64,000 bases of DNA from Kineosporia mesophila. Lineage in GTDB: Bacteria > Actinomycetota > Actinomycetes > Actinomycetales > Kineosporiaceae. Positions within the stretch are counted from its first letter, which is position 1. Each line of letters opens with the position of its first letter. This document shows, piece after piece, positions 14,112 to 27,746 of the stretch. Under the pieces are notes generated by a model. It was given only the letters and a program-made list of their open reading frames with translations, made no database searches and was not told where the DNA came from. The translations under genes and the position numbers were made by a program. The stretch is from NCBI RefSeq assembly GCF_021129235.1, contig NZ_JAJOMA010000003.1, positions 248,001 to 312,000 of the forward strand, in the 5' to 3' direction.

Positions 14112-14633
14112 ATGACGCGAAGCACCCTCGACCTCGGACTGCTCGGCCTGCGGGTCGGCGTCGGCGCCACCCTCTTCGTGCACGGCGCGCAGAAACTGTT
14201 CGGCTGGTTCGGTGGTGGCGGCCTGGCCGGCACCGCCAAGGGTTTCGAGAGCATGGGCTTCACCCCGGGCCACCCCAGCGCCCTGGCGGCCGGGCTCGGT
14301 GAGGCCGGGGGCGCCCTGCTCGTCGTCGGTGCGGCCACCCCGCTCGCCGCCTCCGCCTCGGTCGGCGCGATGATCGGCGCGGCCTCGGTGCACACACCCA
14401 ACGGCTTCTTCAACACCGAGGGCGGCCTGGAGTACCCGGCCGTCCTCGGCCTGGCCGCCGGTGCGATCGCCCTCACCGGGCCGGGCCGGTACTCGGTCGA
14501 CCACCTGCTCGGCAACCGCCTCAACCGCGGCTGGCAGGCCTCCCTGGCCCTGTCCGCCGCGGCCGCCGGCGGTGCGTTCGTGGTGGCCCGGCGCAACAAG
14601 ACCCTGGCCGCCGCGAGCGCTCCCGCGGCCTGA
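14112..14633 (+). CDS. DoxX family membrane protein
   Basis: A 173-residue protein with four hydrophobic helices. The ATG at 14112 follows AAGGAG at a normal distance; upstream in-frame codons lack a site. The typical DoxX opening LDLGLLGLRVGVGATLFVHGAQKLFGWFGGGG is present, followed by the second motif LGEAGGALLVVGAATPLAA. DoxX proteins are membrane subunits linked in some species to redox or thiol-stress complexes; nothing adjacent assigns a role here. A perfect 21-bp hairpin follows, so it is probably monocistronic. Confidence 0.85.
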   Translation: MTRSTLDLGLLGLRVGVGATLFVHGAQKLFGWFGGGGLAGTAKGFESMGFTPGHPSALAAGLGEAGGALLVVGAATPLAASASVGAMIGAASVHTPNGFFNTEGGLEYPAVLGLAAGAIALTGPGRYSVDHLLGNRLNRGWQASLALSAAAAGGAFVVARRNKTLAAASAPAA

Positions 14634-14639
14634 GATCGG

Positions 14640-14690
14640 CCGACCGGGGAACATCCGCGCGGCCTGCGCGCGCGGATGTTCCCCGGTCGG
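14640..14690. terminator. Perfect 21-bp hairpin after the DoxX gene
   Basis: The arms 14640-14660 and 14670-14690 are perfectly complementary over 21 bases, with a 9-base loop that can pair further. It starts six bases after the DoxX stop. There is no T-tract. It separates DoxX from the importer/hydrolase operon. The rest of the 385-base gap to 15018 contains a direct-repeat pair (14839-14882) and no coding sequence that I can support. Confidence 0.7.
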
Positions 14691-14838
14691 GACGGTCCGC
14701 TCTCCCACCAGGCGCTGCACGGCCTGTTATCGCACCCATTGCGAGGGGCCGCTCCCCGCGACTCCCGGGGGAATGGGGCCGAAGGCTGGGGGATTGAATG
14801 ATCACGGACGAGGTGGGGGCGGCCGCCTTTCCATCCGG

Positions 14839-14882
14839 CAGGCGAAACACCCCGCGCCAGGTGCCTTTACCCAGGCGAAACA
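14839..14882. repeat. Direct 11-base repeats upstream of the importer operon
   Basis: CAGGCGAAACA occurs at 14839-14849 and again at 14872-14882, a 33-base spacing or about three helical turns on the same face. They lie 137-180 bases before the first gene of the 12-gene operon and may be an operator or activator site. Confidence 0.4.
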
Positions 14883-15018
14883 ACTCCGTGCATCCGTTGG
14901 GTCACCCTAGACGCGCTCGCCCATTCAGGATACGTTCCACTTCTAGATGGATCCAATCTGCGTCGATTGCTATCCAGCGCCCCACCCTGCCGACCTGCCC
15001 GTCTCGTAGGAGCCCCCC

Positions 15019-16683
15019 ATGCCGCGTCCCACCTCCGCCGCACCCCAGTCCTCGCCGGACACCCCCGATGTCTCCCGTCGCACCATGCTCCGCGGTGCCG
15101 GACTGCTGGGTATGGGAATGACTTTCGGCCTCAGCGGCCTGCTCTCGGCGTGCGGCGTGGCCGCCGACGACGACCAGGACTCGGGGGGCGCCCAGAAGGG
15201 CGGCACCCTGACCATGGCCATCGACGGCACCAGCGCAGTCAACGACCCCGCCTTCTACACCACCCTGGGTGACTGGATGGCGGTCGACTGCATCTGCCGC
15301 GGCCTGACCTTCATCTCCTTCGAGGACAACACCCCGCAGCCCGACCTGGCGGAATCCTGGGAGATCTCGGACGACCAGCTCACCTACACGTTCAAGCTGC
15401 GCAGTGGTGTCACCTTCCACGACGGCACCACCTTCACCTCGGCCGACGTGCTGGCCAGCCTGGGCCGGCAGTTCGACGAGAAGGACAAGACCCTCCCCGA
15501 CGGCGCCTCCCGCCCGCTGAACAGCCTGGGCGCGAACGTGAAGTCGCTCAAGGCCAAGGACGACCTGACCGTCGTCATGGTGCTGCTCAAGCCCGACCGC
15601 ACCGTGCTCTCGCGGCTGTCCGACATCGGCGGCCGGATCATCTCCAGCGCGGCGCTGAAGGAGAAGGGCGCGGACATCGGCAAGGGCCTGGTCGGCACCG
15701 GCCCGTTCAAGTTCGTGTCGTCCACCTCGGGCCAATCCGTGGTGCTGGAGGCGTTCGACGGCTTCCGCCTGGGCCGCCCCCCGATCGACCGGCTCGTCCT
15801 GCAGCAGGTGACCGACCCGTCCACCATTGTGAGTTCGCTGATCTCGGGCGACATCTCGGCCACCCAGTTCACGCCCTACTCGTCGCTGGCCTCGCTGGCC
15901 AAGAACGACGCGGTGACGGTCTACGACACCTCGCTGGGCTTCGACGCGATCATGATGGTCGACGCGCGCCGCATCCCCGAGCTCGAGGTGCGCCAGGCCA
16001 TCAACCTCGCGGTCGACCGCAACGCCATTGTCTCGCAGGCGTTCTTCGGTAAGGGCCAGACGCCCGACGGCTACACCATCCCGCCGTCGCAGAACGGCTA
16101 CGACGCCTCGCTGAAGGATCTCAGCACGCAGGACATGGCCAAGGCCAAGGAATTGCTGAAGGCGGCCGGGGCCGCGGGTCGCACCGTGAAACTGATGGCC
16201 GCGAGCGACAGCTGGCACCCCAAGGCCGCGCAGATCGTCGAGCAGAACCTGACCGACCTGGGCCTCAAGGTCGAGGTCGACTCGGTCGACCCGGCCACGT
16301 ACTTCGGCCGCGTCATCGACCCGGACGACGACTACCACGACCTGATGATCTGGGAGCGCAACTCGTACGTGCCCGACCCGGACAACATGATCGGCGCGAT
16401 GGCCAAACCGTCCGGCGTGTACGGCGACTTCGCCACCGGTTTCGCGAGCCTGAAGGGCGCGGACGCGTTCGAGAACGACCTGTACGAGGCCAAGAACCTG
16501 CCCGACGGGGCCGAGCGCACCGCCAGGTACACCGAGATCCAGCGCCGCTGGGCCGAGAAGTACATGGTGCTCGTGATGCTGGGCTACTCCACCAACCCGG
16601 TGGTGAGCGGCTCCGGAGTGAAGGGCTTCAACTCGAACGCCCTCGGCAACCACCGGTGCTTCATGGAGAAGGCGAGTGTCTGA
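15019..16683 (+). CDS. Family 5 extracellular solute-binding lipoprotein (Opp/Dpp type, Tat-exported)
   Basis: A 554-residue protein; TAGGAG lies seven bases before the ATG. The N-terminus carries the twin-arginine motif SRRTML (residues 19-24), a hydrophobic stretch and the lipobox LLSAC with Cys45, so it is a Tat lipoprotein anchored outside the cell. The SBP_bac_5 domain is complete: PDLAESWEISDDQLTYTFKLR, GVTFHDGTTFTSADV, VGTGPFKFV and the C-terminal lobe with VRQAINLAVDR. It would deliver a peptide, oligopeptide-like or other amide compound to the adjacent permeases. It is the first gene of the operon; its stop overlaps the next start by eight bases. Confidence 0.94.
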   Translation: MPRPTSAAPQSSPDTPDVSRRTMLRGAGLLGMGMTFGLSGLLSACGVAADDDQDSGGAQKGGTLTMAIDGTSAVNDPAFYTTLGDWMAVDCICRGLTFISFEDNTPQPDLAESWEISDDQLTYTFKLRSGVTFHDGTTFTSADVLASLGRQFDEKDKTLPDGASRPLNSLGANVKSLKAKDDLTVVMVLLKPDRTVLSRLSDIGGRIISSAALKEKGADIGKGLVGTGPFKFVSSTSGQSVVLEAFDGFRLGRPPIDRLVLQQVTDPSTIVSSLISGDISATQFTPYSSLASLAKNDAVTVYDTSLGFDAIMMVDARRIPELEVRQAINLAVDRNAIVSQAFFGKGQTPDGYTIPPSQNGYDASLKDLSTQDMAKAKELLKAAGAAGRTVKLMAASDSWHPKAAQIVEQNLTDLGLKVEVDSVDPATYFGRVIDPDDDYHDLMIWERNSYVPDPDNMIGAMAKPSGVYGDFATGFASLKGADAFENDLYEAKNLPDGAERTARYTEIQRRWAEKYMVLVMLGYSTNPVVSGSGVKGFNSNALGNHRCFMEKASV

Positions 16684-17512
16684 TCTTCTGAGAAACCGCA
16701 CCATCGCCACGAACTGGCTGTCCGCCGTGTCGTGGCTGGTGCTGGCGTTCTTCGTGCTGGTCGCGCTGATCGGGCCGTTCCTGATCAGCGCCGACCCGCT
16801 ACGTCAGAGCAACAGCCCGCTGCTGCCGGTCGGCAGCGGCGGGCACCTGCTGGGCACCGACGACCTGGGCCGGGACGAACTGGCCCGGCTCGTGCACGGT
16901 GCCCGGCCGCTGCTCACCGTGGCCGTGCTGGCGACCGTGCTGGCGACCTTCATCGGCACGCTGATCGGTCTGGCGGCGGGCTATTTCGGTGGCCTGGTCG
17001 ACGCGACCGTGATGCGCCTGGTCGACCTGGCCCTGGCGTTCCCGTCGATCCTGCTCATCATCCTGCTGGTCGCGGGGGCCGGGGCGGGCACGACCACGCT
17101 GGTGATCGGCATCGGCATCTCGCTGGCGCCCGGTCTGGCCCGGCTGGCCCGGGCCCTGAGCGCCCGCGAGGCGGCCCGGGACTACGTGCTGGCCTCGAAG
17201 CTCGGGGGTGCCCGGGGGCCGCGCATCATGCTCCAGGAGATCCTGCCCAACATTGCCGGCACGATGCTCGCCCAGGTGGTCATGACCCTCTCCATCGCAG
17301 CCGGTTTCGCGGCGGGTCTGTCGTACCTCGGCCTGGGTATCCCGGCCTCGACGCCGGACTGGGGAAACATGGTGCAGGCCGGGCAGGAGTTCGTGCTCAC
17401 CACACCGTCGCTGACCCTGCTGCCGGCCCTGGCCACCCTGATCTTCGTCGTCGCCTGCAACTTCGCCGGTGACGACCTGCGCGACGCACTCGACCCGCGG
17501 GGGCTCTCATGA
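16676..17512 (+). CDS. ABC importer permease, DppC/OppC-like
   Basis: A 278-residue protein starting at a GTG that overlaps the binding-protein gene by eight bases. The OppC-type N-terminal segment is followed by the HLLGTDDLGRDELARLVHGARPLL signature and a BPD_transp_1 domain with about six helices in all. The EAA coupling motif is EAARDYVLASKLGGARGPRIMLQEILPN. The gene order is unusual, since the C-type permease precedes the B-type. It overlaps the next gene as ATGA. Confidence 0.93.
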   Translation: MSDLLRNRTIATNWLSAVSWLVLAFFVLVALIGPFLISADPLRQSNSPLLPVGSGGHLLGTDDLGRDELARLVHGARPLLTVAVLATVLATFIGTLIGLAAGYFGGLVDATVMRLVDLALAFPSILLIILLVAGAGAGTTTLVIGIGISLAPGLARLARALSAREAARDYVLASKLGGARGPRIMLQEILPNIAGTMLAQVVMTLSIAAGFAAGLSYLGLGIPASTPDWGNMVQAGQEFVLTTPSLTLLPALATLIFVVACNFAGDDLRDALDPRGLS

Positions 17513-18588
17513 CGACCACCACCGTGGCCGCCCGTCAACCGCCCCGGCGCAGCCTGGGTGGCCTGCCGCGCATGATCGCCCTGCGCCTGCTCACCATCCC
17601 CCTGGTGCTGTGGGCCCTGGCGACCCTCGTCTTCGTCGCCCTGCGGCTGCTGCCCGGCTCCCCCGCCACCAGCCTGGCCGGTGGCGGCTCGACCGACCAG
17701 AGCGCGGCCCAGCTCACCGCCAACGCCGCCGAGATCAGTGCCAACCTCGGCCTGGACAAGTCGCTTCCGCAGCAGTACCTGATCTACCTGCGCGACCTGG
17801 TGACCGGCGACTTCGGCTCGTCCTACTTCGGTGGCAACGACGTCCTCGGGCTGATCGGCAACGCGCTTCCCGCCACCATCGAGCTGACCGTGGCGGCCAT
17901 GCTGATCGCGGTCGTCCTGGGTGGCGTCACCGGCCTGTGGGCGGCGCTGCGCAAGGACACCTGGGTCGACACCACCACCCGGGCCGCCGCGACCGTCACC
18001 TTCAGCCTTCCCTGGTTCGCCCTGGGCGTGCTCGGCATCGTGGTGTTCGGGGTCTGGCTGGGCTGGCTCCCGGTGATCGGCCGGGTGCCGAACCAGCTAA
18101 GCTACCAGCCCCTGACCAACTTCGTGCTGGTGGACGCGATGCTCCAGGACCGGCCCGAGCTGATCTGGCCCTGGATCCAGCACCTGATCCTGCCCGCGTC
18201 CACCCTGGCGCTGTCCACGGCCGGTTTCATCACCCGGATCGTGCGCGCCAGTGTGCTGGAGGTGCTGGGCGACGACTTCGTCCGCACCGCCCAGATGAAG
18301 GGCCTGGACGAGAACCAGGTGGTGCGCCGGCACGTGCTGCGCAATGCCTCGCTGCCCATCATCACCGTGCTCGGGCTCCAGTTCGGCACGCTGCTGGGCG
18401 GTTCCACCGTCACCGAGACGGTCTTCTCCTACCCGGGTGTCGGTGTGCTGCTCGTGGACGCGGTGCTGCAGCGCGACTACCCGGTCGTGCAGGGCGCCGC
18501 ACTGGCGATCGCCCTGCTGTTCACACTGGTCAACGCGGCCGTCGACATCCTGTACCTGGTGCTGGACCCACGGCTGGGAGAGAGCTGA
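17509..18588 (+). CDS. ABC importer permease, DppB/OppB-like
   Basis: A 359-residue protein. The N-terminal helix is followed by a periplasm-side region with RLLPGSPAT, then a five-helix permease domain. The EAA motif is ASVLEVLGDDFVRTAQMKGLDENQVVRRHVLRNA, and the conserved GGSTVTETVFSYPGVGVLLVDAVLQRDYPVVQG marks it as OppB-type. It should form the channel with the preceding C-type permease. It is translationally coupled to it by four bases; the hydrolase start follows one base after this stop. Confidence 0.93.
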   Translation: MTTTTVAARQPPRRSLGGLPRMIALRLLTIPLVLWALATLVFVALRLLPGSPATSLAGGGSTDQSAAQLTANAAEISANLGLDKSLPQQYLIYLRDLVTGDFGSSYFGGNDVLGLIGNALPATIELTVAAMLIAVVLGGVTGLWAALRKDTWVDTTTRAAATVTFSLPWFALGVLGIVVFGVWLGWLPVIGRVPNQLSYQPLTNFVLVDAMLQDRPELIWPWIQHLILPASTLALSTAGFITRIVRASVLEVLGDDFVRTAQMKGLDENQVVRRHVLRNASLPIITVLGLQFGTLLGGSTVTETVFSYPGVGVLLVDAVLQRDYPVVQGAALAIALLFTLVNAAVDILYLVLDPRLGES

Positions 18589-18589
18589 C

Positions 18590-19270
18590 ATGGAAATCGT
18601 TCTGGTGCACGGCGCCGGCGGAACCCCCCGGACCTGGGCCCGGGTCCTCCCGCTGCTGGAGGAAAGCGGTTACGCCGTCAGCGCGGTGACGAACCCGATG
18701 ACGTCGCTCCTGGACGACGTCGCCACCACCACCGCCTGGATCGACGAGCACACCACCGGCGACGTGCTGCTGGTGGGTCACTCCTACGGCGGCGCGGTGA
18801 TCGGCGGCGCCGGGGTGCACCCCCGGGTGCGCGGCCTGGTCTACGTGGCCGCCTGGGGCCCCGACGCCGGTGAGTCGATCCAGGACATCCTGGTGCGCTA
18901 CCCCCCGGCCGAGGTCTCCCAGCACATGCTGCGCGGGCCCAACGGCGAGTGGACGTCGGCGGACACGCCGGAGTACTGGGCGGAGATCAACCCCGACGTC
19001 TCCCCCGAGATGCGCGTGCTCTGGAAGAGCGACACCCGGCCCAGCGCCAATGCCGTCTTCGAGCAGAAGGCCCCGGCCGCCGCCTGGCGTGACCGGCCGC
19101 GCTGGTACCTGGTCGCGGCGCAGGACAAGACGCTGCGCACGGACACCCAGCGGGACATGGCCGCGCGGATGGAGGCCGTCACGTACGACGTGCCCGGCAG
19201 CCACTCCGTACCCCAGGTCAGCCCCGGCCGGGTGGTGGAACTCATCGACGAGGCCGTGAAAGCCCTATGA
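18590..19270 (+). CDS. Alpha/beta hydrolase within the importer operon
   Basis: A 226-residue protein; a GGGAGAGAG stretch precedes the ATG at 18590. The oxyanion loop is VLVHGAGGTPRTW, the nucleophile elbow GHSYGG, and the C-terminal histidine lies in PGSHSVPQVSPG; the acid residue is probably the aspartate in AAQDKTL. It resembles short esterase/salicylate-ester hydrolases (EstC/MES type). There is no signal peptide, so it is cytoplasmic. Its place between permease and ATPase genes suggests it acts on the imported compound or an ester derivative of it. Confidence 0.88.
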   Translation: MEIVLVHGAGGTPRTWARVLPLLEESGYAVSAVTNPMTSLLDDVATTTAWIDEHTTGDVLLVGHSYGGAVIGGAGVHPRVRGLVYVAAWGPDAGESIQDILVRYPPAEVSQHMLRGPNGEWTSADTPEYWAEINPDVSPEMRVLWKSDTRPSANAVFEQKAPAAAWRDRPRWYLVAAQDKTLRTDTQRDMAARMEAVTYDVPGSHSVPQVSPGRVVELIDEAVKAL

Positions 19271-20270
19271 GCGAGACCGTGCTGAGCATCCGGGACCTCA
19301 AGGTCGAGTTCGACGTGCCCTCGGGCCGGCTGCCGGCCGTGAACGGGGTCAGCCTGGACCTGCGCGCCGGTGAGCTGCTGGCCCTGGTCGGCGAGTCCGG
19401 CTCGGGCAAGTCGGCCCTCACCATGGGCCTGACCGGGCTGAACCGTGGCCCTCGCACGCACATCTCGGGCACGGCCGACTACCGGGGCACCGATCTGGTG
19501 GCGGCGAGCCGGAAGCAGCTGCAGACCATCCGCGGCGCCGACATCGCGGTGGTGTTCCAGGACGCGCTGGCCGCGCTGAACCCGGTGCAGCGGGTCGGCA
19601 AGCAGGTCGCCGAGATGATCCGCCAGCACCAGAAGATCTCCAGGGCCGACGCCCTGACGAAGGCCCAGACCCTGCTCGGCGACGTCGGCATCCCCAACCC
19701 GCAGCAGAGTGCCCGGGCCTACCCGCACCAGCTCTCCGGCGGTATGCGCCAGCGCGTGATGATCGCGATCGCCCTGGCCAACGACCCGGGCGTGCTGATC
19801 GCCGACGAGCCCACCACCGCGCTCGACGTGACCATCCAGGCCCAGGTGCTGGCCCTGCTCAAGCGCATGCAGGCCGAGCACGGCAGCGCGATCGTGCTCA
19901 TCACCCACGACCTGGGCGTCGTCGCGGAGGTCGCCGACCGGATCGCCGTGATGTACGCCGGGCGCATCGTGGAGGTGGGCACCCGCGACGAGGTGCTCAA
20001 CTCCCCGCAGCACCCGTACACGATCGGCCTGCTCAACTCGATGCCCCGGATCGACGGTCCCCGGCCGCGCCGGCTGGCCGCGATCAAGGGCAGCCCGTTG
20101 TCCGGGGTGAAGCGCCCCGACGGCTGTGCCTTCGCCGCGCGCTGCGAGTTCGTCCACGACGCCTGCGCGGAACGGCCCGAGCTGGCGCAGCGCACCGCCG
20201 AACCGGACCATCTCGACGCCTGCTTCCTGCCCGCCGAGGCCAAGTCGGCCGCCCTGAGAGCCGGTGCCGC

Positions 20271-20274
<4 letters not shown>
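19267..20274 (+). CDS. ABC importer ATPase, DppD/OppD-like
   Basis: A 335-residue protein, coupled upstream by ATGA. Walker A is GESGSGKSA, the signature [12 protein letters not shown], Walker [17 protein letters not shown] and the switch [15 protein letters not shown]. The C-terminal oligopeptide-transporter extension has the usual cysteine cluster ([14 protein letters not shown]...C) that may bind an Fe-S cluster in Opp/Dpp ATPases. It forms a heterodimer with the next gene's product. Confidence 0.94.
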
Positions 20275-21261
<987 letters not shown>

Positions 21262-21272
<11 letters not shown>

Positions 21273-22020
21273 TGCCTACAACACCACCCAGGACGTCCGC
21301 GGCCGCTCCGACTACCTGACCGGCGCCAAGCCCGGTGAGAAGCCGCCGGCCCACGTGCCGTTCGACCCGCAGCGCATCCTCACCCGGATGGACGCCGCCG
21401 GCGTGGACATGGCCATGGTCTGCTCGCTGGCCCAGCGCATCGAGAACGACTTCCTCATCGACATGGTGAGCAAGCACCCCACCCGGTTCATCGGTTTCGG
21501 CCAGGTGATGCCGCAGGCCGACAACGCGATCGACGAGATCGAGCGCTTCGCCGCGGCCGGGCTGAAGGGCCTGAAGCTGCACCCGAGCATGCACGGCTAC
21601 CACGTGGCCGACCACGGCCTGCTCGACCCGGTCTTCGAGAAGTGCGCTTCGCTGGGACTTCCGGTCCTGATCAACGCTCTGGACGACGCGTTCTGCGCAC
21701 CGCTGGCCATCGAGGAGATCGCCAAGGACCACCCGAACGTGCCGACGATCATCGCGCACATGGGTGCGGTCTGGAACGTGCCCGAGGCGATCATCGTGGC
21801 CGAGCGCCAGCCGCACGTGTACCTGGAGACCTCGGCCACCCTGATGTCCGACGTGCGGCGGGCCTACGCCCGCCTGGGCGCCTCGAAGATCCTGCTGGGC
21901 AGCGAATGGCCGGGCTCCGACTTCGATCTCGAGCGCTTCAAGATTGCCAAGGCGATCCCCGACGAGGCCGACCGCGCGCTGGTCGAGGGCGGGAACTTCG
22001 CGAAGATCCTCGGCCTGTGA
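21262..22020 (+). CDS. Amidohydrolase-fold protein lacking the usual metal ligands
   Basis: A 252-residue TIM-barrel protein of the amidohydrolase-2 type. The TTG at 21262 is preceded by AAGGAG (21246-21251) and gives MIIDAYNT; the gene overlaps the ATPase by eleven bases. The family normally begins IDAHxH, but here both histidines are replaced (Tyr6, Thr8). The usual LIHxG after strand 5 reads LINALDD, and the usual GSDxP reads GSEWPGSD. GLKLHPSMHGY and IIAHMG are kept. It therefore looks like a divergent or non-hydrolytic family member. It is coupled to the deaminase-like gene by GTGA. Confidence 0.82.
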
Positions 22021-22442
22021 TCCGGGTTTCCGCGGCGGGCCTGTCCCCGGACGACGTTGAGCTCCTGGACACGGCCCAGGACCTGCTGGGACGAGTCTGG
22101 GTGCACGGCCGCCACGAGGTGGCCACCGCCCTGCGCACCCGGGACGGGAAGATCCACACCGGCGTCCACGTCGAGGGGTCCTGCCGCCGCAGCTCGATCT
22201 GCGCCGAGGGCATCGCCATCGGCACGGTGCTGAGCAACGGCAGCGCGCTCGACATCGAGGCCGTGGTCTCGGTGCAGATCAAACCGGCCGACCGCTTCCG
22301 GGTGATCGCGCCCTGCGGTGTTTGCCGCGAGCTGATCAGTGACTACAGCCCGGACGCGCGGGTCTGGGTGACCGCCGGCGAGACCCTGGAGACCTACCAG
22401 GCTCTCGACCTGCTGCCCGAGAAGTCGCGCCGGGTCTGGTAA
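22017..22442 (+). CDS. Cytidine/blasticidin-S deaminase-like protein
   Basis: A 141-residue protein from a GTG that overlaps the previous stop. The zinc-deaminase pattern is complete: CAE (Cys62-Ala63-Glu64) and PCGVC (Cys100, Cys103). The preceding ATALRTRDGKIHTGVHVEG and the C-terminal LLP...VW resemble blasticidin-S deaminase as much as cytidine deaminase: the asparagine of the NVE nucleoside-binding motif is His51 in HVE. It should deaminate an aminated heterocycle, but the substrate cannot be read from sequence. It is cytoplasmic and part of the importer operon. Confidence 0.85.
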   Translation: MIRVSAAGLSPDDVELLDTAQDLLGRVWVHGRHEVATALRTRDGKIHTGVHVEGSCRRSSICAEGIAIGTVLSNGSALDIEAVVSVQIKPADRFRVIAPCGVCRELISDYSPDARVWVTAGETLETYQALDLLPEKSRRVW

Positions 22443-22459
22443 ACAAAAATGGAGGACGC

Positions 22460-23218
22460 ATGAACAGCCCGGTTTTCTGGGAACGCCAGACCTCGCCGGA
22501 GGCCGGCGAGATGGTGAAGCGCACCGACGCCGTGATCATCCCGGTCGGCGCGATCGAACAGCACGGCCCGCACCTGCCACTGGCGGTCGACACGCTGATC
22601 TGCCAGGCCGTGGCCGAGGCCGTCTCGGCGCAGACCGGTGTGCCGGTGCTGCCGCCGGTCACCTACGGCGTGTCCGGTTCGCACGGTGACTTCCCGGGCA
22701 CCGTCGCGCTGCGGCCCGAGACCATGATCGCCGTGATGGAAGACCTGATCGACTCGCTGCACGCCAGTGGCGTGCGGCAGTTCGTGCTGCTGAACGGGCA
22801 CATCTGGAACAACGGCGCGCTCGACGTCACCGCCGAGAAACTGCGCGTGCGGCACCCGGACTCGCGGGTGCGGGCCCTGGGCTACGTGACCATGTACCCC
22901 GGCCCGGAGGTCAACGGCCGGGTGCAGTTCGGGCGCGGCCTGATGCACGCCAACTTCTTCGAGACCTCGGTGATGCTGCACCTGCACCCCGATCTGGTAC
23001 GGATGGAGCGGGCCACCTCGCACGTCGACGTGGACTCGTTCTGGGACTACCGGATGGACCAGGTCAGTGACACCGGTGTCTGGGGCCGCGAGGTCCAGGA
23101 GGCCAGCGCCGGGCACGGCCGGGAGGAGTTCGACCGCTGTGTGCAGACCACCGCGAAGGCCGTCGCCTCCGCCGTCGCCGAGCCCTGGCCGGACCCCACC
23201 CACCGGCCCACCGTCTGA
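22460..23218 (+). CDS. Creatininase-family amidohydrolase, divergent metal site
   Basis: A 252-residue protein; GGAGG precedes the ATG. The first metal motif is intact: GAIEQHGPHLPLAVDT with Glu33, His35 and Asp44. The second motif NGHxxN is present as NGHIWNNG, with His114. The position used for Glu122 in creatininase is Trp116 here, and the HAGE motif of other family members reads HANF (163-166). One ligand of the second metal therefore seems lost or moved, perhaps to Glu168. The family opens cyclic amides or cleaves formamides and peptides. It lies 17 bases after the deaminase gene. Confidence 0.87.
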   Translation: MNSPVFWERQTSPEAGEMVKRTDAVIIPVGAIEQHGPHLPLAVDTLICQAVAEAVSAQTGVPVLPPVTYGVSGSHGDFPGTVALRPETMIAVMEDLIDSLHASGVRQFVLLNGHIWNNGALDVTAEKLRVRHPDSRVRALGYVTMYPGPEVNGRVQFGRGLMHANFFETSVMLHLHPDLVRMERATSHVDVDSFWDYRMDQVSDTGVWGREVQEASAGHGREEFDRCVQTTAKAVASAVAEPWPDPTHRPTV

Positions 23219-23231
23219 AAGGCATTCCCGC

Positions 23232-23864
23232 ATGAAGATCTACGACATCACCCTGCCGATCCACCCGAAGATGCTGCACTGGGGCCGCAAGCCCGAGGTC
23301 GAGGTGGTCGAGTCGCTGGAGAACGGCGACGCGAGCAACGTGACCCGCTGGCGCCTGGGCGCGCACACCGGCACCCACGTCGACGCCCCCGCGCACTTCG
23401 TCGACGGCGCCACGCCGATCGACAAGGTCTCGCTGTACTCGATGGTCGGCCCGGCCATCGTCGCCGACTGCACCCAGGTCGAGGGTGAGGTGCTGCCCGA
23501 GCACCTGGAGGCCGCGGGTGTCGCCGGGCACCAGCGGGTGCTGCTGAAGACCACGAACTCGGCCGGCCCGCTGAAGGAGACCGAGCGGGCACAGACCTGG
23601 GTGGGCGTCGGCCCGGCCGCCTCGCAGTGGCTGGTGGACCACGGCGTCGAGCTGATCGGTACCGACTACATGACCCTCGAGCACCACACCCGCACCGACA
23701 CCTGGGACTCCCACCACGTCCTCCTGAACGCCGGCGTCCTCATCCTGGAGAACGCCGACCTGGACGAGGTGCCCCCGGGCGAGTACGAATTGGTGTGTCT
23801 GCCGACGAAACTGGTCGACGCCGACGGCGCCTTCACCCGCGCCATCCTGATCGAGAGGGACTGA
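23232..23864 (+). CDS. Cyclase-family (kynurenine formamidase-like) metal hydrolase
   Basis: A 210-residue protein of the PF04199 cyclase fold. The signature HTGTHVDAPAHF supplies His45, His49, Asp51 and His55, the usual metal ligands and general base of kynurenine formamidase and isatin hydrolase. The N-terminus IYDITLPI fits the family. It should hydrolyse an amide, formamide or lactam ring. It lies 13 bases after the creatininase gene in the same operon. A second, distantly related member occurs at 56792-57607. Confidence 0.88.
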   Translation: MKIYDITLPIHPKMLHWGRKPEVEVVESLENGDASNVTRWRLGAHTGTHVDAPAHFVDGATPIDKVSLYSMVGPAIVADCTQVEGEVLPEHLEAAGVAGHQRVLLKTTNSAGPLKETERAQTWVGVGPAASQWLVDHGVELIGTDYMTLEHHTRTDTWDSHHVLLNAGVLILENADLDEVPPGEYELVCLPTKLVDADGAFTRAILIERD

Positions 23865-23872
23865 GACCCGTC

Positions 23873-25387
23873 ATGCCTGAGGTAGCGATCGCGGCACCCC
23901 ACCCCGACGCGGTGGCGGCCGCCCGCACGGTGGTCGCCGGCGGCGGTGGGGCGGTGGACGCCGCGATCGCGGCCGCGGCCGCCCTGACCGTGGCCTACCC
24001 GCACCAGTGTTCGGTGGGCGGTGACCTGATCGCCCTGATCCGCAAGCCCTCCGGTGAGGTGCGGGCGGTGATCTCCGCCGGTGCGGCGGCTTCCGCTTTC
24101 GACCCGGCGTCCGTCGCCGGTCTCGACCGGATGCCGCCCGGTGGTCCCCTGGCCATCACGGTGCCGGGGGTCGTGGCCGGCTGGGCCGAACTGGCCTCGC
24201 TCGGCGCCCGGTTGCCGCTGTCCGACCTCCTGCAGCCGGCCGTCGGGCTGGCGGCGGACGGGGTCGAGGTGAGCCCCGGCCTGGTGCGGGGCACCGTCGA
24301 CCGGCTCCCGGTGGTCCGCGCCGATCCGGGTCTGTCGGCGTTGCTGCTCGATGACGACGGTGAGCCCCGGGCGGCCGGGTCACCTCTCGTGCAGCCCGCC
24401 CTGGCGGGCACCCTGACCCAGATCGCCCACGACTGGCGCTCGTTCTACACCGGCCCGCTCGCCGAGCGGGTCGCGGCCGCGCTGGAGCGGTTCGGCAGCC
24501 CGCTGCGGGCCCCGGACCTGGCGGCCCACCGGGCCGAGGTCTGCGAACCGCTCCGCCGCACTGAAAACGACGTGGTCTGGTCGGTCGCTCCCCCGCCCAG
24601 CCAGGGAGCGGCTCTGCTGGCCGTGCTCGCCGCCCCGCCGGCCGGACGGCTCGCCGCCGCCCGCCAGGCCGAGCTGCGCCGTGACGCCCTGCTCGGCGAC
24701 CCCGCGAAGGGCCCGATCGACGTGGAGGCACTGCTCGGCGCGTCCGCCGCGTCCGTCTCCCAGCTGCCGACCGGCCCCAAACCGGCCGGCGACACCGTGG
24801 CCGTGACCGCCGTGGGCTCCGACGGCACCGCGGTCACGCTGATCCAGAGCGTGTTCCAGACCTTCGGTTCCGGCCTGCTCGACCCGGGGACCGGCATCGT
24901 GTTCCACAACCGGGGCTCCGCGTTCAGCATCGACGAGGCCCACCCGGGCCGCGTGCAGCCGGGCGCCCGCCCCCCGCACACCCTCTGCCCGGTGATCGCG
25001 GTCAGTGGCGACACCGTGATGGCCCTGGGCTGTCAGGGCGGCCGCGCCCAGGCCTGGATCCTCTCCCAGGTCGCGGAAGACGCCCTGGTGACGGACGACC
25101 TGAGCGCGGTCCTGGACCGCCCGCGCTGGGTGATCGGCTCCCGCGACCTCGGCATGCCCTCCCCCACCCTGCTGCTGGAGCCCGGCGTCCCCGGTACGGA
25201 AGCTCTTTCGTCCGCCGCGACCGACCTGGGCCTGACCGTGGTGACCTCCGGCACCAAGCGCGACGACGCGGGCCACGTCCAGGTCAGCCGCCTGACCAGG
25301 ACCGGCCTGGCCGCGGCCGCCGACCCCCGGGCCGACGGGGTGGGAACCGTCCTGACCAGCCCCCGGAGTGCCCGGCACCATGCCTGA
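23873..25387 (+). CDS. Gamma-glutamyltransferase-family Ntn hydrolase
   Basis: A 504-residue protein. The N-terminal nucleophile is Thr308 in GDTVAVTAVGSDG, aligning with the T of TTHYSVVD in E. coli GGT; FGSGLLDPGTGIVFHNRGSAFS and the PGARPPHTLCP stretch follow as in the family. Self-cleavage before Thr308 would give chains of about 307 and 197 residues. No signal peptide is visible, so unlike most GGTs it is probably cytoplasmic. It may remove a gamma-glutamyl or similar acyl group from the imported compound. It overlaps the next gene by eight bases. Confidence 0.86.
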   Translation: MPEVAIAAPHPDAVAAARTVVAGGGGAVDAAIAAAAALTVAYPHQCSVGGDLIALIRKPSGEVRAVISAGAAASAFDPASVAGLDRMPPGGPLAITVPGVVAGWAELASLGARLPLSDLLQPAVGLAADGVEVSPGLVRGTVDRLPVVRADPGLSALLLDDDGEPRAAGSPLVQPALAGTLTQIAHDWRSFYTGPLAERVAAALERFGSPLRAPDLAAHRAEVCEPLRRTENDVVWSVAPPPSQGAALLAVLAAPPAGRLAAARQAELRRDALLGDPAKGPIDVEALLGASAASVSQLPTGPKPAGDTVAVTAVGSDGTAVTLIQSVFQTFGSGLLDPGTGIVFHNRGSAFSIDEAHPGRVQPGARPPHTLCPVIAVSGDTVMALGCQGGRAQAWILSQVAEDALVTDDLSAVLDRPRWVIGSRDLGMPSPTLLLEPGVPGTEALSSAATDLGLTVVTSGTKRDDAGHVQVSRLTRTGLAAAADPRADGVGTVLTSPRSARHHA

Positions 25388-26978
25388 CCTCCTCATCACC
25401 GGCGACATCCACACCCTGGCGCCGGAGCACGAGATGCCGGCCCGGGTCGAGGCGATCGGCGTGCGCGACGGGGCCGTCGTGTCCTGGGGGTCACGGGGGT
25501 GGGTGCGGGCCGAGCTCGGCGGGCGGGTGCGCGAGATCGACCTGCCCGGAACGGTCCTGCCGGGCTTCACCGACAGCCACGTGCACGTGCTGTGGGCCGG
25601 CCGGCGTCAGGACCGGTGCGACCTCAGCGATGTGCGCAGCGTCGAGGAGATCGGGCGGCGGCTGGCCGAATTCGCGGCGGGCCACCCGGGCTGGATCGAG
25701 GCCGACGCCGAGTTCGAGGCGATCGACCTGGCCGAGGGCCACCTGCCCGACCGCTTCGACCTCGACCGGGCCTGCCCGGGCCGGCGCGTGGTGCTCGACC
25801 GCAAGGGCCACGACGCGATCGTCAGCTCACCGGTGCTGCTCGACGCCGGGATCACCGCCACCACCCCGGACCCGGCCGGCGGCCGGATCCACCGCGACCG
25901 CACCGGCCGCCCGACCGGGCTGCTGATCGAGCACCCCGCCGTGGCCCTGGTCCGGACCGTGCAGCCCGCACCGGATCTCGAGACCCGCATCCGCTGGATC
26001 CGGCTCGGCCAGGCCGAGCTGCTGCGCCAGGGCATCACCACCGCGATGGACCCGGCCGTCACCCTGGCCGAGCTCCCGGCCTGGATCAGCGCCGCCCAGG
26101 AGGGCTGGCTGGGTCAGCGCTCGGTGGTCATGCCGCTGGGCTCGGACGACGTGAGCCCTCTCGAGATTGCCTCTTTCCTGGACGCTTCCGGGATCGACGA
26201 CGTCGACCCCGGCCGGCTCCGGACCGGGCCCACGAAACTCTTCCTGGACGGCGGCGGTTCGCTGGGCACGGCGTGGCGTTCCAGTCCCTGGCCGGGTCCC
26301 GGGAAGCCGGACCACGGCAACCAGAGCATCACCCTCGACACCCTGCGCGCGCACTGCTCGGCCGGTCTGCGCGGACGGGGCGTCGGGGTGCACGCGGTCG
26401 GCGACGCCGCGATCGACGCCCTGCTCGACGTGCTCGAGGTGCTGAACTGGGCCGGCGACCAGCCCTACCGGGGCAGCGGGTTCCACATCATCCACGGCTA
26501 CCTCTCCCCCAGCGGTTCGGCGTTGTCGCGGGCCGCCCGCCTCGGCGTACCCGTCTCCGCCCATCCAGCCCTGCAGTGGGCCTTCGGCACCGCCCTGATC
26601 GACCGGCTCAGCGAGGCCGAGGCCGCCCAGGCCAACCCCCTGCGTTCCTGGCTCGACGCCGGGGTACTGGTCGGTGGCGGCAGCGACGGCCCGGGCCCGC
26701 CCCTGTCCCCGCTCTTCGGCATGTGGCAGGCCCGCACTCGCATGGTGCGAGGCCGCGCCACCCCGCTCGGAACGTCCCAGGCCATCACCCCCGCCGAGGC
26801 CCTGACGCTGTTCACCACCGGCGCCGCCGCGATCACCGGAACCCGCGGCCACCTGTCCCCGGGCGGCCCCGCCGACCTGGTCGCCCTCGACGTCAACCCC
26901 CTGACCTGCGACGACGAGGAGCTACGGCAGGGCCGGGTGCTGACCACCCTGGTGGACGCCCGGCCGGCCCTGACCTGA
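25380..26978 (+). CDS. YtcJ-like amidohydrolase (amidohydrolase-3 family)
   Basis: A 532-residue protein; the ATG at 25380 lies within the last codons of the previous gene. The metal motifs are intact: GFTDSHVHVLWAG (HxH), IIHGYLSPSG, VGVHAVGDAAIDALLDVL and GGGSDGPGPPLSPL (Asp ligand). It ends with the beta-sandwich motif LSPGGPADLVALDVNPL. The family includes N-substituted formamide deformylase and many uncharacterised amidases. It is the last gene of the operon, 27 bases before the convergent PilZ gene. Confidence 0.9.
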   Translation: MPDLLITGDIHTLAPEHEMPARVEAIGVRDGAVVSWGSRGWVRAELGGRVREIDLPGTVLPGFTDSHVHVLWAGRRQDRCDLSDVRSVEEIGRRLAEFAAGHPGWIEADAEFEAIDLAEGHLPDRFDLDRACPGRRVVLDRKGHDAIVSSPVLLDAGITATTPDPAGGRIHRDRTGRPTGLLIEHPAVALVRTVQPAPDLETRIRWIRLGQAELLRQGITTAMDPAVTLAELPAWISAAQEGWLGQRSVVMPLGSDDVSPLEIASFLDASGIDDVDPGRLRTGPTKLFLDGGGSLGTAWRSSPWPGPGKPDHGNQSITLDTLRAHCSAGLRGRGVGVHAVGDAAIDALLDVLEVLNWAGDQPYRGSGFHIIHGYLSPSGSALSRAARLGVPVSAHPALQWAFGTALIDRLSEAEAAQANPLRSWLDAGVLVGGGSDGPGPPLSPLFGMWQARTRMVRGRATPLGTSQAITPAEALTLFTTGAAAITGTRGHLSPGGPADLVALDVNPLTCDDEELRQGRVLTTLVDARPALT

Positions 26979-27005
26979 GGGGTCAGCGGTGTCCGGGCGG
27001 GTCGA

Positions 27006-27746
27006 TCACCTCGGGCTTGTCCTGCGGCCGGAGAGAGTTCCCCGTTCGCGGTTGAACACCAGGCGCACCAGGCGTTCGCGGTCGATGGGTGAGATGTCGG
27101 TGAACTCGGCGCGGAAGCCCTTGCGGGTCTCCTCCAGCACGATCATCAGCACCGGCACCAGGTCGCCGCCGGGCAGGGTGACCTCGCCGTAGATCTGGAC
27201 GCCGGGGGCGATCGGGGCGCTCCCCTCCAGGTCGGCGCACAGTCCACCGGCCGAGATGGACGTGGTGACGCCGATCAGGGTGGCCATCGCCTCGGGGCCC
27301 GGGCCCATCGCGGCCAGCGAACCCGGCTGCAGGGGGCGGCGGGTCGGTGAACCCCGGTGGGCACCCGTCTGTGCCGGGCGCCCCATCAGTGTCCCGCGGA
27401 ACTCCAGGTTCACCGGCCCCCGGACGTTCTCCCGGCGCTGGTCGGTGAGGGAGGCCGGGCGGATCGCCTTCGACGGCTGGGGCTTCGGCGAGCGCAGCAT
27501 GAGATCGCCCGCGGTGGCGACGATCTCGACGTCCATCTGCATCGGGCCGGAGTCGGTGGAGAGGTCGACGGTGAGCGGGCCGGACGCGGGGCCCGGGAGC
27601 CCGGCGTCCTGAAGGCTGCGCAGGTCGGCCAGCACCGGGATCGCCCAGCCGGGCCCGGTCAGGTCCACGGTGCGCAGCGAGCGCATCGACACCTCGACGT
27701 CACCGGCCCGCACGACCAGCTTGCTGCCCCCGGCGATCGACGCCAT
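27006..27746 (-). CDS. PilZ-domain-like protein (probable c-di-GMP receptor)
   Basis: A 246-residue protein from the ATG at 27746 (MASIAGGSKLVVR); an in-frame extension upstream shows no conservation. The layout is a YcgR-like N-terminal domain (about residues 1-95), then RRENVR, matching the PilZ RxxxR switch, and after a variable, basic Pro/Gly-rich insertion TSISAGG in place of the (D/N)xSxxG motif. The first residue of that second motif is Thr, so binding may be weaker. With four GGDEF proteins in the window, a c-di-GMP effector is plausible. There is no membrane segment. Confidence 0.72.
   Translation of the reverse strand: MASIAGGSKLVVRAGDVEVSMRSLRTVDLTGPGWAIPVLADLRSLQDAGLPGPASGPLTVDLSTDSGPMQMDVEIVATAGDLMLRSPKPQPSKAIRPASLTDQRRENVRGPVNLEFRGTLMGRPAQTGAHRGSPTRRPLQPGSLAAMGPGPEAMATLIGVTTSISAGGLCADLEGSAPIAPGVQIYGEVTLPGGDLVPVLMIVLEETRKGFRAEFTDISPIDRERLVRLVFNRERGTLSGRRTSPR

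Follow-up and report, generated by a model that had tools for sequence, protein, structure and literature searches.

A twelve-gene operon of Kineosporia mesophila looks like the uptake-and-hydrolysis half of a conserved actinobacterial breakdown pathway

Introduction

What would a bacterium take up and break down with an operon that joins a complete importer to seven hydrolase and deaminase genes? The question is raised by twelve plus-strand genes at positions 15019-26978 of a 64,000-nucleotide stretch of the Kineosporia mesophila genome (the window; contig NZ_JAJOMA010000003.1 of a 7.78 Mb assembly), which follow one another with overlaps of 4-11 bases or gaps of at most 17 bases. They encode an Opp/Dpp-type importer, an alpha/beta hydrolase (ABH), an amidohydrolase-fold protein (AH2), a cytidine/blasticidin-S-deaminase-like protein (CDA), a creatininase-family hydrolase (CRN), a cyclase-family hydrolase (CYC), a hydrolase of the G_glu_transpept family (GGT) and a YtcJ-type amidohydrolase. 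A model's reading of the letters (hereafter the sequence-only reading) had described twelve same-strand genes with tight junctions and had named their families; frames and coordinates confirmed the layout, and Pfam recovered every family.

Here we report that the twelve genes look like a real operon, presumably read as a single transcript, and like the uptake-and-hydrolysis half of a larger conserved actinobacterial breakdown pathway. As a unit the operon holds in so far as importer and hydrolases stand together, and is incomplete in that an oxidative half and a regulator gene lie elsewhere in the assembly. The sequence-only reading knew of no described pathway with this gene set, and we found no description of the gene combination, or of the DNA word reported below, in the open-access full-text literature; the available parts of PMC4617892 and PMC8864220 do not describe the set. 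The combination, the word and the AH2 group thus appear undescribed in that literature, the single enzyme families being known. A conserved pathway of ~20 genes in many Actinobacteria would imply a compound common enough for selection to keep the pathway, and neither compound nor pathway was found in the open-access literature.

Conservation of the gene set across genera

We scanned 84,980 species genomes with an AH2 alignment and two short AH2 peptides (MIIDAYN and HMGAVWN), which yielded 117 AH2 relatives, and analysed the best 80 loci. Each locus covered at most 10 kb on either side and several ended at contig ends, so absences within loci are weak evidence. Genes were called by a simple script (longest frame plus a GC-by-position filter) and labelled at thresholds of our own setting: strict labels gave AH2 in 79, CDA in 64, CRN in 33 and CYC in 33 loci, and looser ones 80, 80, 45 and 48, respectively. 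With AH2 as the locus selector, its presence in 80/80 is by construction and its high conservation is favoured by the selection. Genus labels were taken from record titles, with unnamed records and metagenome-assembled genomes (MAGs) labelled separately, and the 17 Streptomyces loci are not independent.

The 80 loci carry 33 genus labels, nearly all actinobacterial (Kineosporia, Actinoplanes and relatives, Streptomyces, Pseudonocardia, Nonomuraea, Microbacteriaceae, Demequina, Amycolatopsis, Rhodococcus and others), with one Gammaproteobacteria MAG. All twelve genes stand in the same order on the plus strand in 7/80 loci (6 labels), the first eleven in 17/80 (9 labels) and the first nine in 32/80 (10 labels), while the ordered trio AH2-CDA-CRN occurs in 40/80 (15 labels) and the pair AH2-CDA in 74/80 (28 labels). 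A CDA relative was present within every one of the 80 loci; in six of them (L127-L132) it is on the opposite strand, indicating that the pairing with AH2 is not only inherited order. Five Kineosporia genomes (G000, G006, G007, G008 and G009) carry the full operon in the same order, and a sixth (G005) lacks it. Our search for gene set and order therefore bears out the operon as conserved in other species and genera.

CRN is found in 45 of the 80 loci, a phosphotriesterase (PTE)-fold protein in 20 and an isochorismatase-fold protein in 16, with six loci having none of these; CRN shares a locus with either of the other two in 2/80 (Fisher p 1e-13, a value that overstates the exclusion because it partly follows clades).

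A midpoint-rooted AH2 tree, several nodes of which have weak support, joins Kineosporia to a single Pseudonocardia (support 0.89). It places Jiangella among the Microbacterium sequences and Promicromonospora among those of Microbacteriaceae, and sets the Gammaproteobacteria MAG next to Streptomyces and Nonomuraea (0.96). These placements suggest transfer between genera. The MAG locus (L124, 39-14375) holds a GS-like gene, AH2 (84% identical), CDA and CRN, along with HyuA/HyuB, P450, short-chain dehydrogenase/reductase (SDR), GGT and Rieske genes and an adjoining TonB receptor, which suggests that the core was transferred out of Actinobacteria, unless the bin is mixed. Searches of mobile elements returned little: a DNA search of plasmids yielded nothing beyond short matches (in the 20 of 186 records listed, they fall on the ATPase genes), all 507 plasmid protein records for GGT were distant relatives below 60% identity (top 37.5%), all 220 for AH2 were likewise below 60% (the 25 listed at 27.6%), and a CDA scan of viral contigs found no relative.

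A second locus with oxidative enzymes

To find further families within 10 kb of AH2, we clustered the neighbouring proteins of the 80 loci and relabelled them. An FCD-type GntR regulator gene recurred in 53/80 loci, a copper amine oxidase (CuAO) in 45, a sarcosine-oxidase-like flavoprotein (DAO) in 41, a class V pyridoxal-phosphate (PLP) enzyme (AT5) in 32 and an aldehyde dehydrogenase (ALDH) in 30; less frequent were an amidase (AS) and an Amidohydro_1 protein (26 each), a YjgF-like protein (23, labelled from a Pfam match below its cut-off), a metallo-beta-lactamase fold (21), a Rieske oxygenase (10) and a glutamine-synthetase-like (GS-like) ligase (10). Many other Actinobacteria hold both halves in one cluster. 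Two members could be named by NCBIfam: the CuAO of L054 passes as a primary-amine oxidase (734 vs 651 bits) and the DAO of L085 as an N-methyl-L-tryptophan oxidase (285 vs 257 bits). The AT5 of L085 reached 172.5 bits against hercynylcysteine sulfoxide lyase EgtE (TIGR04343), below the cut-off of 400, and the best match of GS-like, gamma-glutamylputrescine synthetase, gave 247 bits against a cut-off of 650. By sequence, Kineosporia DAO is nearest to sarcosine oxidases. Kineosporia AT5 is closest to cysteine desulfurases, and its matches include hercynylcysteine sulfoxide lyase.

The window operon itself has none of these recurrent families. Elsewhere in the source assembly, AT5, DAO and CuAO lie together on contig C1 (matches 527010-529282 and 529261-531204), surrounded by genes for ALDH, a Fer2 protein, a cupin, the FCD regulator, Rieske and GS-like proteins. 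AT5, DAO, CuAO, FCD and Rieske genes are also together in G006-G009, and hence in 5/5 operon-bearing Kineosporia genomes; ALDH adjoins AT5 in four of the five (not G006), and our script saw GS-like in three (G000 in part, G006 and G007). The operon-less G005 holds distant relatives only (CuAO at 38%, weak AT5 and DAO matches; FCD was not sought) and gave no Rieske match at E 1e-60. Across a sample of 396 genomes of the order, AH2 (E 1e-40) was found in 12 and the Rieske orthologue (E 1e-60) in 7, and an AT5 orthologue (at least 61% identity) occurred in the same 7 genomes, all of them among the 12 with AH2.

One open frame in L085 (13473-16094) contains both AT5 and DAO domains, which are separate frames in Kineosporia, and is possibly a natural fusion. 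Similar long frames occur in 12 other loci (9 from Streptomyces, plus L127, L128 and L132), L085 being the one scanned.

A shared DNA word and an FCD regulator

We then asked which short words recur in the stretches of up to 250 bases that precede labelled cluster genes (89,525 bases in all). The 10-mer present in the largest number of genus labels was ATTGGATCCA, with 121 copies across 24/33 labels. Over 1,580,716 bases it occurs 165 times, compared with a mean of 0.46 and a maximum of 15 for 100 shuffled words, and of 123 merged word centres 97 precede a labelled gene by no more than 300 bases, 12 fall inside such a gene and the other 14 lie elsewhere. The exact word is present in 69/80 loci.

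In 5/5 operon-bearing Kineosporia genomes, the operon and the second locus are each preceded by the palindromic word ATTGGATCCA(AT). Comparing word places with the starts of protein matches, we located the exact word ~58-76 bases before the gene for the substrate-binding protein (SBP) and ~100-190 bases before AT5 in the five. Of the seven word places in the source genome, three belong to the two loci; G005 contains a single copy, and the word read backwards, used as a control, gave 0 in all six Kineosporia genomes. The spacer between the FCD and Rieske genes contains near copies such as TTGGGATCCATT in four genomes (that of G008 was not extracted). A regulator gene in one of the loci, together with a palindromic word that the two share, is the arrangement of an FCD-GntR regulon, and we consider it likely that this regulator controls both loci; the two halves are probably co-regulated. 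The two-locus layout and shared word make the regulator and the binding protein a handle for finding the substrate.

The word was also seen beyond the cluster. An FCD paralogue (54% identical) with its own word copy lies near genes for a P450 and a ferredoxin reductase (L192, G000:C19:73001-83500) and perhaps represents a sister regulon. A perfect ATTGGATCCAAT palindrome occupies the divergent spacer between G6PD and DUF1275 genes in two Kineosporia genomes (L189, 5743-8136, and L190).

The altered metal site of AH2

AH2 scores above the PF04909 gathering score, and the amidohydrolase fold named by the sequence-only reading stands; the name amidohydrolase is not safe because most of the metal ligands of the superfamily are absent. 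The HxH pair is replaced by Y-N-T (Y6/T8), the His after strand 5 by Asn138 and the Asp after strand 8 by Glu215, each in 80/80 loci, whereas one ligand, His166 (after strand 6), is kept in 80/80, so that three of four ligand sites are lost (we take the strand numbers to be 5, 6 and 8). The HxH column was aligned by eye, MAFFT having shifted the N-terminus. Canonical Amidohydro_2 proteins from sister loci (n=3) keep DTHLH, H, H and D. Across the 80 loci AH2 is 73-94% identical to the window protein. Between genera this exceeds the identity of the remaining operon proteins; inside the genus, CYC and the permeases match AH2 closely in conservation.

LigI, a metal-independent member of the amidohydrolase superfamily, provides a precedent for catalysis without a divalent metal. 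AH2 belongs to the same broad superfamily and differs from LigI in that the HxH pair itself is replaced, by Y-x-T. Should AH2 work without the usual metal site, it would broaden what is known of catalysis in a large enzyme superfamily.

The other hydrolases and the importer

We next looked at catalytic residues, counting over those of the 80 loci that hold a match to the protein in question. CDA keeps C62, A63, C100 and C103 in 80/80 and E64 in 76/80, with an alignment gap in the other four, and reached at best 112.7 bits against the cytidine deaminase NCBIfam equivalog (cut-off 131). CRN scored 141 bits against creatininase TIGR04448 (equivalog cut-off 235). Of the metal ligands of the Pseudomonas creatininase, which we take to be E34, H36, D45, H120 and E122, the counterparts E33, H35, D44 and H114 are kept in 45/45 and the position of E122 is W116 in 45/45. 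CYC, at 137.3 bits against kynurenine formamidase KynB (TIGR03035, cut-off 223.05), has the metal motif HTGTHxDxPxH, with its three His in 48/48 matches and D51 in 47/48. GGT scored 185.7 bits against gamma-glutamyltransferase TIGR00066 (cut-off 357.85) and carries the catalytic Thr at the start of its small subunit, T308, in 48/50 matches. The YtcJ-type protein keeps HxH in 12/12 covering matches, and 24 further matches fall short of the site. None of the seven operon enzymes passes an NCBIfam cut-off, and therefore no more precise naming is possible.

As the sequence-only reading had stated, the importer is complete: Pfam matched all five components (a family-5 SBP, two BPD permeases and two oligo_HPY ATPases), tied to the hydrolases in one operon. 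Its specificity could not be read from model scores. None of the 11 SBP matches or of the 14 and 20 permease matches passed a substrate-specific NCBIfam cut-off, nor did ATPases D and F pass any among the 25 listed of 189 matches each. The SBP reached 138 bits against the GsiB model (cut-off 594), and we set aside nickel, glutathione or oligopeptide import as assigned by model score, all listed matches being below cut-off. The loci contain no fewer than three kinds of binding protein: that of the window, a second kind with 24-26% identity to it where the two matched (defined by that similarity) and SBP_bac_8.

Clues to the substrate

Several sister loci bring in enzymes of urea and ureide metabolism. 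In Demequina L123, a 1194-aa urea carboxylase (Pfam) reads towards AH2 across a 16-base gap, and an allophanate hydrolase (Pfam) adjoins the FCD gene; at the same place L064, L109 and L122 carry long open frames (1218, 1200 and 1202 aa), and these loci also hold allophanate hydrolase relatives. These four Demequina loci are the smallest version of the cluster, consisting of a urea-carboxylase-sized gene, AH2, CDA, CRN, a major facilitator superfamily (MFS) transporter and the FCD regulator. An importer is encoded on the opposite strand, and within the loci we found no amine-oxidising arm. HyuA/HyuB genes lie near GS-like-AH2-CDA-CRN in L124, and L131 holds an M24 peptidase, M24 being the fold family of creatinase. 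The isochorismatase-fold protein is nearest to N-carbamoylsarcosine-amidase-related and biuret hydrolases. The urea carboxylase and allophanate hydrolase beside AH2-CDA-CRN resemble the urea amidolyase route, which differs in being noticed in the Demequina clade only and outside the window operon.

Another comparison is offered by Corynebacterium glutamicum ATCC 14067, for which the available part of the report lists CreT, CrnA, CshA and HyuB as creatine/creatinine genes, with CodA for creatinine degradation, and names sarcosine as product and AmtR as regulator (PMC8864220). Shared with that partial description are a creatininase family, an MFS transporter and an N-carbamoylsarcosine-amidase-type isochorismatase around AH2-CDA, a HyuB-type hydantoinase in one AH2 locus and a sarcosine-oxidase-like flavoprotein (PMC8864220). 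In contrast, CRN scores too low for the creatininase model, the importer encoded in the window is of the ATP-binding cassette (ABC) type and the regulator gene is FCD-GntR rather than AmtR, and AH2, CDA, CYC, GGT, CuAO, Rieske, the EgtE-like enzyme and GS-like do not figure in the part of the description available (PMC8864220).

Our NCBIfam scan found neither a bona fide creatininase nor a creatinine deaminase in the cluster. We accordingly rejected true creatinine degradation: CRN is below its cut-off and lacks what we take to be the E122 ligand, and the resemblance is at family level. Because the accessory families resemble creatine/creatinine catabolism, we propose a creatinine- or hydantoin-like cyclic ureide or guanidine head with an amine tail as substrate, a tentative assignment by analogy that we hold at somewhat less than an even chance. 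The sequence-only reading had suggested a peptidyl-nucleoside compound; the sole pointer to it that we saw is the resemblance between CDA and the deaminases of cytidine and blasticidin S, and the urea carboxylase, hydantoinase and N-carbamoylsarcosine-amidase relatives of sister loci favour a cyclic ureide or guanidine instead. Its broader idea of an amide that is deacylated, ring-opened and deaminated would fit the wider gene set if the amide is rich in nitrogen.

The amine arm recalls two other systems, the Puu pathway, in which putrescine is gamma-glutamylated, and the AtdA-type aniline dioxygenases. The families in common are a GS-like ligase, a flavoprotein amine oxidase, an aldehyde dehydrogenase, a Rieske protein and a GGT-family hydrolase. 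Unlike Puu, GS-like here is far below its cut-off, no PuuD- or PuuE-type family is among those labelled, and the other hydrolases are left unexplained.

A proposed two-part system and its alternatives

Taken together, the loci very probably represent one conserved catabolic system. In the explanation that we favour, and on which we judge the balance to be even, it is a single two-part system of uptake, hydrolysis and oxidation. The Opp-type importer would take up a nitrogen-rich small compound and the operon would perform its hydrolytic breakdown, with the second locus, which lies on a different contig of the assembly, contributing the oxidative part through ALDH, the EgtE-like PLP enzyme AT5, DAO, CuAO, Rieske and a gamma-glutamyl-ligase-like protein; the FCD-type GntR regulator of the second locus would control both through ATTGGATCCAAT-like sites. 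CDA may deaminate a cyclic guanidine or ureide head. Opening this head and stripping it to urea or ammonia would fall to AH2, whose mechanism would be metal-poor or metal-free, and to CRN, the CRN role being filled elsewhere by a phosphotriesterase-fold or isochorismatase-fold enzyme. CYC, GGT, ABH and YtcJ would cleave further amide bonds, and the amine tail would be oxidised by CuAO, the flavoprotein and the aldehyde dehydrogenase, perhaps after gamma-glutamylation that GGT reverses. A bolder form of this proposal, conceivable but rather short of evenly balanced, is an undescribed pathway, widespread in Actinobacteria, that has spread from genus to genus and, on one occasion or more, into a Gammaproteobacterium and that acts, through a new metal-ligand-poor branch of AH2 and a dedicated CDA, on the cyclic guanidine or ureide of a common, unrecognised natural compound.

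Several observations count against the two-part system. The 7 Rieske- and AT5-positive genomes of the order sample belong to two genera only, and 5/12 AH2-positive genomes (four of the genus Demequina and one Bifidobacteriaceae MAG) lack both orthologues, so the oxidative arm is not obligatory; four AH2-negative genomes hold AT5 relatives at 36-45%. The exact word is missing from 11/80 loci, and an earlier control with related words was weaker (ATGGATCCAA with 24 copies and ATGGATCCCA with 8, against a mean of 1.2 and a maximum of 38 for 200 shuffles of ATGGATCCCA). Copies of the word also stand at non-cluster genes (the FCD paralogue of L192 and the G6PD/DUF1275 spacer of L189), so several FCD regulators may read similar words. 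Urea carboxylase was noticed only in Demequina and HyuA/HyuB only in L124, the other loci not having been searched for them. CRN, CDA, CYC and GGT are below their equivalog cut-offs and AT5 and GS-like far below, so that the reactions assigned to them are putative.

The fluid content outside AH2-CDA, with CRN, PTE-fold and isochorismatase-fold proteins rarely sharing a locus, could also come from a broad nitrogen-scavenging cluster, in which wide-specificity hydrolases and amine oxidases are co-regulated for ammonia release with no single substrate; at least three kinds of binding protein, and the potential of most of these families to liberate ammonia or amines, point the same way. A loose collection, however, would hardly keep CDA near AH2 in 80/80 loci with AH2 at 73-94% identity and share a DNA word, and a cluster with an FCD regulator gene of its own suggests a response to a specific inducer and not to nitrogen status in general; we regard scavenging as unlikely. 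Mere adjacency of unrelated processes, imaginable for families that belong to many pathways elsewhere, is contradicted by the conservation of order and content: other genera show the gene order of the window, and there are loci in which these families are put together in a different order, leaving it next to no probability.

Two other substrate classes were weighed. Breakdown of pterin or folate would have CDA remove the 2-amino group, Rieske and GS-like handle the aromatic amine, GGT cut gamma-glutamyl links and the pyrimidine ring yield urea, and by family chemistry CDA, GGT, GS-like, Rieske, the amine oxidases and urea carboxylase could fit the parts of folate. No known pterin deaminase or p-aminobenzoyl-glutamate hydrolase family is among those scanned, though, and the EgtE-like enzyme and the copper amine oxidase have no clear place, so we give this reading very little credence. 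Breakdown of a peptidyl-nucleoside or other amide antibiotic draws on CDA, which resembles cytidine and blasticidin-S deaminases, on the peptide importers included in family 5 and on the GGT relatives, which include a protein named cephalosporin acylase. It seems highly improbable: CDA does not reach the cytidine deaminase cut-offs, the recurrent families scanned and labelled include neither a nucleoside hydrolase nor a phosphorylase nor a ribose gene, and urea carboxylase, hydantoinase and amine oxidases are left unexplained.

Operon layout and boundaries

All twelve genes are open frames with plausible starts (Table 1), AH2 starting with TTG and CDA with GTG. From the coordinates, the overlaps along the operon are 8, 4, 4, 4, 11, 4 and 8 bases and the gaps 1, 17, 13 and 8. 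The longest frames of ABH, AH2, CDA, CYC, GGT and YtcJ begin upstream of their likely starts, and the first family searches and the GGT searches were run with these over-long frames.

Table 1. Features of the operon and its upstream word (positions in the window)
Feature	Position	Strand	Evidence
Operator-like word TGGATCCAAT / ATTGGATCCA	14948..14957	.	61 bases before SBP start
SBP, family 5 (SBP_bac_5)	15019..16683	+	PF00496 252.5 bits, cut-off 32.4
Permease, C type (BPD_transp_1)	16676..17512	+	best NCBIfam Opp4C 215.6 bits, cut-off 350
Permease, B type (BPD_transp_1 + N-terminal domain)	17509..18588	+	best NCBIfam Opp2B 286.6, cut-off 350
ABH, alpha/beta hydrolase (Abhydrolase_6)	18590..19270	+	PF12697 78.3 bits; GHSYGG nucleophile elbow
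ATPase D (ABC_tran + oligo_HPY)	19267..20274	+	Pfam
ATPase F (ABC_tran + oligo_HPY)	20271..21272	+	Pfam
AH2, Amidohydro_2 fold, most usual metal ligands gone	21262..22020	+	PF04909 116.9 bits, gathering score 26.4
CDA, cytidine/blasticidin-S-deaminase-like (dCMP_cyt_deam_1)	22017..22442	+	C-A-E + PCGVC zinc motif
CRN, creatininase-family hydrolase	22460..23218	+	PF02633 228.3 bits
CYC, cyclase-family (kynurenine-formamidase-like) metal hydrolase	23232..23864	+	PF04199 85.6 bits
GGT-family (G_glu_transpept) N-terminal nucleophile (Ntn) hydrolase, GDT-type catalytic Thr	23873..25387	+	PF01019 278.7 bits
YtcJ-type amidohydrolase (Amidohydro_3)	25380..26978	+	PF07969 226.9 bits

Upstream, the operon is separated from a DoxX-family gene by a 385-base gap. 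A strong hairpin follows that gene (14636-14700, 22 pairs, z -6.4, without a T tract) and is likely the boundary before the operon; a simple scan of 14600-27100 found no terminator-like or promoter-like site. Downstream, a convergent PilZ-domain gene lies from 27006 onward. The upstream ABC-ATPase, ABC2 and flavoprotein genes are retained beside the operon in Kineosporia genomes, and DoxX in 2/4 relatives; we excluded these upstream genes from the operon because loci of other genera show weak ABC cross-matches only. At the other end, the YtcJ-type gene has an alternative GTG start at 25368, which would lengthen the last overlap to 20 bases.

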